Below, one piece after another: positions 20,924 through 22,677 of a DNA stretch of 64,000 bases (positions are counted from its first letter, which is position 1; each line of letters starts with the position of its first letter). Made by a program: the position numbers and the translations under genes. The notes below the pieces were generated by a model. That model worked only from the letters and a program-made list of their open reading frames with translations. It ran no database searches and was not told the origin of the DNA. This DNA comes from Rhizobium sp. CCGE531 (GTDB lineage: Bacteria > Pseudomonadota > Alphaproteobacteria > Rhizobiales > Rhizobiaceae): positions 2,643,001 through 2,707,000 of the forward strand of contig NZ_CP032684.1 in NCBI RefSeq assembly GCF_003627795.1, written 5' to 3'.

Positions 20924-21820
20924 ATGCCATTGGATTGGGACAAGCTGCGTATCTTTCACGCGGCTGCCGAAGCGGGTTCGTTCACGCATGCGGCCGATAA
21001 GTTGCATTTGTCCCAGTCCGCGATCAGCCGGCAGGTCAGCGCGCTCGAGCAGGACGTCGGCATCAAGCTTTTCCACCGCCATGCGCGCGGCCTCATCCTG
21101 ACCGAACAGGGCGAGTTGCTTTATCGCACGGCTCATGACGTTCTCTTGAAGCTCGAAACGGTCAAGATGCAATTGACCGAAACGACCGACAAGCCGAGCG
21201 GCAAGCTGCGCGTGACGACGACGGTCGGCCTCGGCCAGGGCTGGCTCACCGACAAGATCCAGGAATTCCTGCAGCTTTATCCCGACATGTCGATCCAGCT
21301 CATCCTCGATAACGAGGAGCTTGATGTGAACATGCGCCATGCGGATTGCGCCATCCGGCTGCGCCAGCCGCAGCAATCGGATTTGATCCAGCGCAAGCTC
21401 TTCACCGTCCACATGCACGTCTATGCGGCCCCCTCCTACATCAACCGCTACGGCGAGCCGCAATCGGTCGAGGCTCTGGACGAGCATCGCATCATCAGCT
21501 TCGGCGAGCCGGCGCCGAACTACCTGCTCGACGTCAACTGGCTGGAGATCGCCGGCCGGTCGTCCGACAACAAGCGCGTGCCGCATCTGCAGATCAACAG
21601 CCAGACGTCGATCAAACGCGCATGCCTGCTCGGCATCGGCATCGCCGTTCTGCCTGATTATATCGTCGGTCGCGATCCGGGCCTTATCCAGCTCGCAATC
21701 AATGCGGACGTACCATCCTTCGATACATATTTCTGCTACCCGGACGAGATGAAAAACGCGGCTAAGCTTAAGGTTTTTCGTGATTTTATCGTGTCCAAGG
21801 CTCGTAACTGGAATTTTTAG
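20924..21820 (+). CDS. lsrB: LysR-type regulator LsrB/VtlR
   Basis: The 298-residue LTTR opens with the signature MPLDWDKLRIFHAAAEAGSFTH. It has an HTH at about 18-45 and an effector domain at about 93-290. Orthologs are LsrB of Sinorhizobium (LPS genes, redox, symbiosis) and VtlR of Brucella/Agrobacterium (activates AbcR sRNA genes). Cysteines at about 142, 234 and 270 are candidates for the redox response reported for LsrB. ATG 20924 is chosen because GAGGGG lies eight bases upstream; GTG 20897 and ATG 20900 overlap the trxB stop. Its position between trxB and two abcR genes matches the family's conserved synteny. Confidence 0.9.
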   Translation: MPLDWDKLRIFHAAAEAGSFTHAADKLHLSQSAISRQVSALEQDVGIKLFHRHARGLILTEQGELLYRTAHDVLLKLETVKMQLTETTDKPSGKLRVTTTVGLGQGWLTDKIQEFLQLYPDMSIQLILDNEELDVNMRHADCAIRLRQPQQSDLIQRKLFTVHMHVYAAPSYINRYGEPQSVEALDEHRIISFGEPAPNYLLDVNWLEIAGRSSDNKRVPHLQINSQTSIKRACLLGIGIAVLPDYIVGRDPGLIQLAINADVPSFDTYFCYPDEMKNAAKLKVFRDFIVSKARNWNF

Positions 21821-21881
21821 TGAAGGTAAGTCACTGATAACGAACTCTTTTTATGACTAATATATCAGCTGCGCGTATGAT

Positions 21882-21896
21882 GCATAGCTGATATGC
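21882..21896. promoter_or_regulatory. candidate LsrB operator of the first abcR gene
   Basis: GCAT-N7-ATGC (extended TGCAT-N7-ATGCA) is a 15-bp LysR-type dyad followed by ACAAAA, ending 11 bp before the -35 of the first sRNA. The same dyad occurs 203 bp downstream at the same distance from the second promoter. That LsrB binds it is inference. Confidence 0.6.
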
Positions 21897-21907
21897 ACAA
21901 AATAGAG

Positions 21908-21936
21908 TTGAAGCCTGCCCATTTAACTACCATATC
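21908..21936 (+). promoter_or_regulatory. promoter of the first abcR sRNA
   Basis: TTGAAG (21908-21913), a 17-bp spacer, CATATC (21931-21936). Predicted start is about 21943-21944, which gives a 115-nt RNA ending in a T8 tract. Confidence 0.7.
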
Positions 21937-21943
21937 GCACATA

Positions 21944-22058
21944 GCTGATGCACACGGTGGCTTTTCCTCCCAGTTCCACCGCATTGGCTGTTCCCCTCTG
22001 GAGGTTTTTGACCTTCATACCTATAGGGCCCTGGTTTACTCCGGAGGCCCTTTTTTTT
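21944..22058 (+). ncRNA. abcR: AbcR-family (alpha-r15) trans-acting sRNA, first copy
   Basis: This is a roughly 115-nt Hfq-type sRNA. It carries two exposed anti-Shine-Dalgarno stretches, TTTTCCTCCCAGTTCC and GTTCCCCTCTGG, and ends with a terminator (GGGCC ... GGCCC then eight T, 22025-22058). AbcR1/AbcR2 silence many ABC-transporter mRNAs in Agrobacterium, Sinorhizobium and Brucella, and they lie in tandem between lsrB/vtlR and an ArsR gene, exactly as here. It is nearly identical to the second copy. Which copy is AbcR1 or AbcR2 cannot be decided from this window. Ends are predicted, not mapped. Confidence 0.88.
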
Positions 22059-22084
22059 GCCTTTTTGATGCCAGGCCCGCAAAC

Positions 22085-22099
22085 GCATAACTGCCATGC
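22085..22099. promoter_or_regulatory. candidate LsrB operator of the second abcR gene
   Basis: GCAT-N7-ATGC followed by ACAAAA, exactly 203 bp from the copy at 21882 and at the same distance (11 bp) from its -35. The N7 cores differ (AGCTGAT versus AACTGCC) while the arms are kept. Confidence 0.6.
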
Positions 22100-22110
22100 A
22101 CAAAAAAGCA

Positions 22111-22139
22111 TTGCGCACTGCACAAATTAGCATCATAAC
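22111..22139 (+). promoter_or_regulatory. promoter of the second abcR sRNA
   Basis: TTGCGC (22111-22116), a 17-bp spacer, CATAAC (22134-22139). It is weaker than the first copy's promoter at both hexamers. Predicted start is about 22146-22147. Confidence 0.65.
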
Positions 22140-22146
22140 GCACATA

Positions 22147-22262
22147 GCTGATGCACATGGTGGCTTTTCCTCCCAGTTCCACCGCATTGGCTGTTCCCCT
22201 CTGGAGGTTTTGACCTTCACACCTATAAGGGCCCTGGTTCATTCCGGTGGCCCTCTTTTTTT
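22147..22262 (+). ncRNA. abcR: AbcR-family (alpha-r15) trans-acting sRNA, second copy
   Basis: This is a roughly 116-nt RNA with the same unpaired CU-rich seed regions as the first copy (TCCTCCCAGTTCC and TTCCCCTCTGG). Its terminator is GGGCCC ... GGTGGCCC followed by CTTTTTTT, ending at 22262. Differences from the first copy are few and mostly in loops or compensating single-base gaps. It lies 122 bp upstream of the ArsR gene. The two copies probably share targets but may differ in expression because their promoters differ. Confidence 0.88.
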
Positions 22263-22383: not shown

Positions 22384-22677
22384 ATGGACAAGAACGAGAT
22401 ATTGAAGGCCTTGGCCAATCCGGCCAGGCTCGAAATCCTCAACCACCTCAAGGATCCGGAAACCCATTTCCCGACCCAGGAACATCCGCTGGAGCTTGGT
22501 GTCTGCGCCAGCCAGTTCGAGCGCTGCGGTCTCTCGCAATCGACTGTCTCCGCTCACCTGGGCACGCTCCACCGCGCGGACCTGGTGACGACGCGGCGCC
22601 TCGGCCAGTGGATTTTCTACAAGCGCAACGAAGAAACCATCGCTGAATTCCTCGAAGCCATGCGGAAGGAACTCTGA
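22384..22677 (+). CDS. ArsR-family winged-helix repressor
   Basis: The 97-residue regulator has a winged HTH (LKALANPARLEILNHL, then SQSTVSAHLGTLHRADLV). Cysteines lie in GVCASQFERCG, ahead of the recognition helix. It is the syntenic equivalent of the ArsR gene that flanks abcR in other rhizobia. ATG 22384 is preferred; in-frame TTG/GTG codons lie 9-12 bp upstream, and the ribosome-binding site is weak. The MFS gene starts 2 bp after its stop, so it heads an ArsR-MFS-OYE unit that it probably represses. The spacing of its cysteines is compatible with a metalloid or thiol/electrophile sensor; the inducer is unknown. Confidence 0.88.
   Translation: MDKNEILKALANPARLEILNHLKDPETHFPTQEHPLELGVCASQFERCGLSQSTVSAHLGTLHRADLVTTRRLGQWIFYKRNEETIAEFLEAMRKEL

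Follow-up and report, generated by a model that had tools for sequence, protein, structure and literature searches.

Results

Two complete AbcR genes lie between lsrB and an arsR-type gene

The window, i.e., the whole 64-kb stretch of DNA that was analysed, contains two complete AbcR (ar15) small RNA (sRNA) genes in tandem at the known address of this family, between an lsrB/vtlR orthologue and an arsR-type gene (Table 1). An Rfam covariance-model search returned two full-length matches to ar15 (RF02345, AbcR; model positions 1-112 of 112) on the plus strand, one at 21943-22056 (116.1 bits, E 8e-24) and the other at 22146-22259 (111.9 bits, E 8.8e-23), both above the family's gathering score of 40. 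Besides these two copies, no Rfam match exceeded the cut-off in the whole 64-kb window. The copies are offset by exactly 203 bp, and a gapped alignment of their RNA bodies gives 93% identity. Three hairpins were predicted for each (z = -3.25 for copy 1 and -3.34 for copy 2; 200 shuffles each), together with two single-stranded CU-rich anti-Shine-Dalgarno (anti-SD) motifs and a terminal U run, as is characteristic of ar15. These motifs, M1 (CUUUUCCUCCCAGUU; named after PMC7486931) and M2 (GUUCCCCUC), consist of the same letters in both copies.

A preliminary description of this DNA had named two near-identical AbcR units between lsrB and an arsR gene, each with CU-rich anti-SD loops and an intrinsic terminator, and had proposed a search with the Rfam alpha-r15 model as a check. 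The two matches reported above are the outcome of that search, the Pfam domains of both neighbouring genes confirm the position, and the predicted folds with their T8 and T7 runs agree with the loops and terminators.

We also considered whether the locus might be a coding sequence rather than an sRNA locus, for example, the minus-strand frame of 97 aa at 21927-22220. Such an open frame does exist, but it spans both repeat units plus the spacer, and the covariance-model matches are full-length with folding z-scores below -3; we give this explanation virtually no credence and rejected the frame as a repeat artefact.

Table 1. Positions of the lsrB-AbcR-arsR locus features in the window
Feature	Position	Strand	Basis
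lsrB (vtlR) orthologue, LysR-type activator	20924..21820	+	Pfam HTH_1, LysR_substrate
LsrB box, copy 1 (GCATAGCTGATATGCACAA), -61 to -43	21882..21900	+	7/7 fixed bases of consensus; exact extended 19-mer
Core promoter position, copy 1, GTTGAA-N17-CCATAT	21907..21935	+	Direct reading of letters
AbcR (ar15) sRNA copy 1, through U run	21943..22058	+	RF02345; start inferred from Rfam model
M1 anti-SD loop, copy 1	21961..21975	+	Unpaired in predicted fold
M2 anti-SD single strand, copy 1	21990..21998	+	Unpaired in predicted fold
Intrinsic terminator, copy 1	22025..22058	+	Hairpin + T8
LsrB box, copy 2 (GCATAACTGCCATGCACAA), -61 to -43	22085..22103	+	7/7; exact 19-mer match
Core promoter position, copy 2, ATTGCG-N17-TCATAA, weak hexamers	22110..22138	+	Direct reading; copy 1 geometry
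AbcR (ar15) sRNA copy 2, through U run	22146..22262	+	RF02345; start inferred from Rfam model
M1 loop, copy 2 (same as copy 1)	22164..22178	+	Copy alignment, predicted fold
M2, copy 2 (same as copy 1)	22193..22201	+	Copy alignment, predicted fold
Intrinsic terminator, copy 2	22228..22262	+	Hairpin + T7
ArsR-type regulator gene, right-hand locus boundary	22384..22677	+	Pfam HTH_5, HTH_20

The arrangement resembles that of S. meliloti AbcR1/AbcR2 (SmelC412/SmelC411, smrC16/smrC15), which likewise form an ar15 tandem between lsrB and an arsR gene, with two anti-SD motifs, terminators of their own and, for copy 1, a box at -61. Likewise, it shares the A. tumefaciens gene order trxB-vtlR-abcR1-abcR2-arsR. 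Brucella abortus also has an AbcR pair, but there the genes lie on different chromosomes rather than in tandem, and AbcR2 is the VtlR-dependent one of the two. Whereas the S. meliloti genes are 84% identical, the window pair reaches 93% with identical M1 and M2, and the 5' loop, reported as variable in most chromosomal duplicates (PMC3712013), is not so in the window pair. For R. etli, a tiling array study lists two suhB-like candidate noncoding RNAs, ReC58 and ReC59 (PMC2881028).

Both copies carry an LsrB box at -61

Ungapped identity between the two units is 5/20 just upstream of position 21880 (about -63) and rises to 16/20 over the next 20 nt, so the duplication takes in the upstream region and, as the preliminary description had held, the promoters. 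Within this block, the published LsrB box GCAT-N3-TG-N3-T is found in both copies at exactly -61 (to -49), with all seven fixed bases in place, which is the AbcR1-subtype arrangement. Letter-shuffled upstream sequences reached 6/7 in 0.74% and 7/7 in 0.063% of 9500 trials. The boxes at -61 are a feature that the preliminary description did not mention.

The region from -61 to -1 is 75% identical between the window copies, compared with 93% for the body. The 17-bp-spaced promoters described earlier do line up at the 203-bp offset in geometry, but their hexamers (Table 1) are weak in both copies relative to the published abcR1 promoter consensus, CTTGAC-N17-CTATAT. A generic sigma-70 promoter and terminator scan detected neither promoter and neither real terminator, and was therefore uninformative at this locus. 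The poor -35 and -10 hexamers of copy 2 would fit dependence on an activator; copy 2 could instead be weak or silent.

In S. meliloti, the LsrB motif of PabcR1 lies at -61 to -49 and its removal costs more than 22-fold of activity, whereas PabcR2 is unaffected by LsrB loss and abcR2 is mostly RpoH1-dependent (PMC8844928). The strong LsrB dependence was obtained in strain Sm2011 and stands against a result in strain 1021, in which loss of lsrB had no effect on AbcR1/2 (PMC7486931). In A. tumefaciens, abcR1 but not abcR2 responds to VtlR, which binds PabcR1; PabcR2 DNA is no competitor for this binding (PMC7486931).

Copy 2 of the window departs from both precedents. S. meliloti AbcR2 has an RpoH1 promoter, in which no other conserved motif was reported (PMC8844928), whereas copy 2 here has a perfect LsrB box and at best a 6/13-mismatch RpoH1-like core; the median is 3 for the 38 box-less second copies among the matches listed (see below). 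A. tumefaciens AbcR2 is VtlR-independent and said to lack M1, whereas copy 2 here has both M1 and the box. The label "AbcR1/AbcR2" given in the preliminary description is thus apt as to family and address, but not in the sense of an LsrB-independent second copy of the S. meliloti or A. tumefaciens type, since both copies here have the AbcR1-type box. The copy 1 core (21907-21935) differs from the published RpoH1 motif at only 3/13 positions, so copy 1 may itself respond to stress in this genome. We found no statement on an LsrB box in a second tandem copy in the main-text literature searched.

Second copies fall into box-bearing and box-less classes among relatives

To place the window pair among its relatives, we compared lsrB loci from genome contigs. 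Among the matches listed, 80 loci were kept, to whose lsrB the window gene is 93-100% identical, and ar15 lies downstream of lsrB in 79 of them, which bears out the conserved address claimed earlier. These 79 loci, again among the matches listed, hold 157 ar15 copies: two copies in 74 loci, one in 3 and three in 2. The exception, the lsrB locus of Rhizobium sp. FKY42, gave no ar15 match within 3 kb downstream when searched twice. Across the window's genus, ar15 was present in 147/148 genomes, at one to six copies each.

For pairwise comparison, we pooled the lsrB loci among the matches listed with the window locus and those of seven further genomes from the window's genus, giving 84 tandem pairs; where a locus had three copies, the first two alone were compared. 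First copies scored 6-7 of 7 for the box in 82 of the 84 pairs. Second copies carried the box in 46/84 (35 with 7 and 11 with 6 bases) and lacked it in 38 (scores 2-5). Median body identity between the copies was 92% where copy 2 bears the box and 71% where it does not. All these counts hold among the matches listed, and the same scope applies to the titles of the 38 box-less loci: 9 Agrobacterium, 8 Neorhizobium, 3 Allorhizobium, 1 Xaviernesmea, 3 "Rhizobiales bacterium", and 14 Rhizobium, including R. oryzicola, R. terrae, and R. nepotum. A "Rhizobium" title is therefore no predictor of box class. All seven relatives chosen from within the window's genus had the copy 2 box (7/7). In the nine Agrobacterium-titled loci among the matches listed, copy 1 scored 6-7/7 at -61 and copy 2 scored 0-2, in agreement with VtlR acting on PabcR1 and not on PabcR2.

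The box rule is imperfect. More specifically, several box-less second copies among the matches listed have a 6-of-7 match at -41 (L063, L078, L080, L083, and L084), and two others have a displaced 6-of-7 match, at -56 (L048) or -70 (L040). In 16 tandem arrays from other genera of the family (two of which, G252 and G193, repeat L032 and L052), a later copy had the box in 4 (G252, G246, G243, and G192) and lacked it in 12. Larger arrays occur as well: a four-gene array (L158; G246) has the LsrB box on three of its four genes, and a three-gene array (L169; G192) has it on all three.

A looser box pattern gave 2-12 matches in each of 148 genus genomes versus 0-2 for controls; these include true boxes and coding matches, and only pairs were used. 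On that basis, 18 of the 20 relatives in the window's genus whose matches were fully listed (G001-G020) have two boxes 203-225 bp apart, and G005 and G013 have one.

Copy 2 is of the AbcR1 type

Every box-bearing second copy among the matches listed (46/46) resembles the first copies of box-less loci (median identity 87%) more than the second copies of those loci (69%). Window copy 2 follows suit, at 88.5% to the first and 70% to the second copies of box-less loci. In a tree of 190 copies, a single clade of all 84 second copies was rejected (AU p 1.7e-8). By its closeness to AbcR1, window copy 2 is AbcR1-type in sequence.

These results bear on whether the window holds a classic split pair, with copy 1 as an LsrB-driven AbcR1, copy 2 as a stress-driven AbcR2 and the copy 2 box as a remnant. 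The shared address with the known AbcR1/AbcR2 pair and the weak sigma-70 hexamers at copy 2 would suit that arrangement. Against it, copy 2 boxes of 6-7/7 recur in more than half of the pairs compared, every such copy among the matches listed is AbcR1-like, and in the window it is copy 1, not copy 2, that more resembles the RpoH1 motif. We regard a split pair as improbable.

RNA bodies and promoters of the pair have different histories

To examine how the pair evolved, we built one tree from promoters (66 columns) and one from RNA bodies (114 columns), using 26 pairs of the R. tropici group, 13 of the R. leguminosarum group and 6 outgroup copies. In the promoter tree, the first copies of both groups fell on one side of a branch (97/100), and the second copies of both groups grouped together at 93/78, a support below the threshold of the tool. 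In the body tree, grouping by position was rejected (AU p 0.0035 for first and 0.0001 for second copies), and a single clade of R. tropici-group bodies was marginally rejected (p 0.046). As the groups were named after the first tree had been seen, these p-values are optimistic.

The grouping by position across both groups in the best promoter tree would date the duplication to before the R. tropici/R. leguminosarum split, and the disagreement of the body tree with the promoter tree suggests, but does not prove, gene conversion. An old duplication followed by repeated gene conversion in the RNA body is accordingly the reading that we favour, and two other histories were weighed against it. The first is a younger duplication of the whole unit with no gene conversion, the R. 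tropici group having duplicated anew. The 93% body identity and a duplicated block that holds box and promoter are what such an event would leave, and holding the two R. tropici-group promoters together was not rejected (p 0.398); yet the promoters group by position across the two groups, with the support values given above, and the interval from -61 to -1 is more diverged than the body. We consider a recent duplication unlikely. The second is strong purifying selection on the RNA, rather than conversion, holding the bodies alike. M2 is indeed near-invariant in the copies compared (exceptions include G002_C5, G025_C1x, and L180), but the M1 hairpin has diverged in R. leguminosarum-group second copies, and it is hard to see how selection by itself would lead the body tree to reject positional grouping. 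We consider this alternative, too, unlikely, if slightly less so. Gene conversion between a tandem AbcR pair is the subject of no statement found in the main-text literature searched.

An extended box matches three ar15 promoters and, with one mismatch, a site before NfeR1

An extended 19-mer box (GCATNNCTGNNNTGCACAA), derived from the same ar15 promoters, occurs four times without mismatch in the 7.14-Mb genome, whereas its reversed control does not occur. Three of them precede ar15 genes (both tandem copies and a further copy on contig C4; see below). The fourth falls within an ORF for a putative ABC-transporter ATPase, and we dismissed it as a target.

One of the four sites with a single mismatch (C1:3979519-3979537, minus strand; L191) precedes the start of a match to ar14 (NfeR1; 118.5 bits), elsewhere on C1, by 56 nt. 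The ar14 gene was not among the promoters used to build GCATNNCTGNNNTGCACAA. In S. meliloti, control of NfeR1 by LsrB is proven, the site lying at -72 to -57 (PMC10746234), and the box upstream of ar14 is in line with that link. Like AbcR, NfeR1 is an sRNA with several anti-SD loops that LsrB activates via a related box; unlike AbcR, it belongs to a separate Rfam family (RF02344).

Proposed regulation: two LsrB-driven doses of one sRNA

AbcR is a main posttranscriptional brake on rhizobial nutrient uptake. In the two-gene layout of S. meliloti, one copy serves LsrB and the other serves stress; the layout in the window's genus appears different. We propose that each AbcR gene would form its own transcription unit and that the neighbouring LsrB is predicted to switch on both. 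LsrB would bind GCAT-N3-TG-N3-T at -61 and assist RNA polymerase, the core promoter being weak. An RNA of ~116 nt would result and, with Hfq, cover the ribosome-binding sites of transporter and metabolic mRNAs by means of the CU-rich strands M1 and M2; Hfq binding and repression of ABC-transporter mRNAs by AbcR are known in S. meliloti. Because M1 and M2 are identical in both copies, the pair is expected to act as two interchangeable doses of one regulator, not as an S. meliloti-style LsrB/RpoH1 split pair. The RNA body of copy 2 has probably been kept like that of copy 1 via gene conversion, with the promoters diverging.

Taken together, we judge it very probable that the locus comprises two AbcR genes, both LsrB-driven, acting as a dose pair with an AbcR1-type copy 2 and probable conversion. 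In this account, LsrB dependence, targets, Hfq binding, the dose effect, and gene conversion are all predicted from the letters and their comparison. With an LsrB box on both copies, the window's genus may have given up the stress input or placed it elsewhere. Both the sRNA family and its address are known; the regulatory layout, as far as sequence can tell, differs from that of the model species.

Further ar15 copies lie on other contigs and on plasmids

Two more ar15 genes are present in this genome, on contigs C4 and C3. The C4 copy (C4:544414-544524; L085:8415-8525; 109 bits) has a box of 7/7 at -61 and is flanked by DUF3991/Toprim, DUF1419, NYN, ArdC, and DUF736 genes. The C3 copy (C3:511010-511125; L086:8511-8626; 89 bits) has a decayed box (5/7); it adjoins a LuxR-type gene and a gene for an LPD7-domain protein. 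Across the window genome and seven relatives, 14 of 17 non-tandem copies have a box of 6-7, the misses being the C3 copy, G010_C7 and G025_C1x.

The C4 copy with its promoter matched 390 of 72,556 plasmid records. Of these 390, 273 are typed as conjugative, and the match on pRtrCIAT899b of R. tropici CIAT 899 shows full identity over 191 bases. In a spread sample of 60 of the 390 alignments, 35 begin at query base 18-20, which is where the box lies; a further 17 begin at base 1-16, and 8 cover the RNA alone or part of it. We opened 26 records, a nonrandom selection of the five top-ranked and 21 picked by hand from the spread list. A box of 6-7 was present in 24 of these 26, the exceptions being Roseibium (L183) and S. 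americanum (L193).

Gene context was counted on the 25 annotated records of the 26, using a gene set made up of DUF3991-toprim, DUF1419, a 5.1-kb helicase/methylase, a ParB-N protein, an ArdC-like zincin, and DUF736. Sixteen of the 25 copies have a gene of this set no more than 6 kb away (9 kb in the first four records), and 2 more are near virB or mobC genes only, so that 18/25 are near set or conjugation genes. The sRNA comes directly after the 5.1-kb gene in 9/25 contexts, and traG is visible beside the set in two records. In the window's genome, the neighbours of the C4 copy belong to this set as well. We infer that the set represents a transfer module or leading region. The remaining 7/25 contexts showed no set, virB or mobC gene nearby, and a single address for every plasmid copy was rejected on their account.

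Plasmid copies of AbcR have been in print since 2007. According to the sra41 report, rhizobial chromosomes and (mega)plasmids carry two to three copies, those of Agrobacterium being confined to the chromosomes (PMC2245857), and three homologues are reported in S. meliloti (PMC7143759). Our observations resemble the sra41 data in that ar15 occurs on chromosomes and plasmids, and differ in that plasmid copies are found here in Agrobacterium too; the passages of the sra41 report consulted describe neither LsrB boxes nor this plasmid address. The main-text literature searched contained no statement on an address beside the gene set.

Conservation of the box on plasmid copies raises the question of whether conjugative plasmids adjust the metabolism of a recipient via its own core sRNA and regulator. 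The plasmid copies would presumably be driven by the chromosomal LsrB. We tentatively advance, while thinking it somewhat more apt to be wrong than right, a broader view of AbcR as a mobile regulator that plugs into LsrB: in Rhizobiaceae, conjugative plasmids, with an AbcR gene of their own that often sits in the gene set and retains the box of a chromosomal regulator, would on entering a recipient raise its AbcR dose via its LsrB and thereby retune nutrient uptake, and the pair in the window's genus would likewise be two doses kept by conversion.

Two further features of the plasmid records were observed. The Roseibium plasmid (L183), from outside Rhizobiaceae, has an ar15 match of 81 bits without an LsrB box, near a zeta-toxin gene. 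In two other records (L170 and L177), the plasmid region that holds ar15 also contains group II introns with reverse transcriptase.
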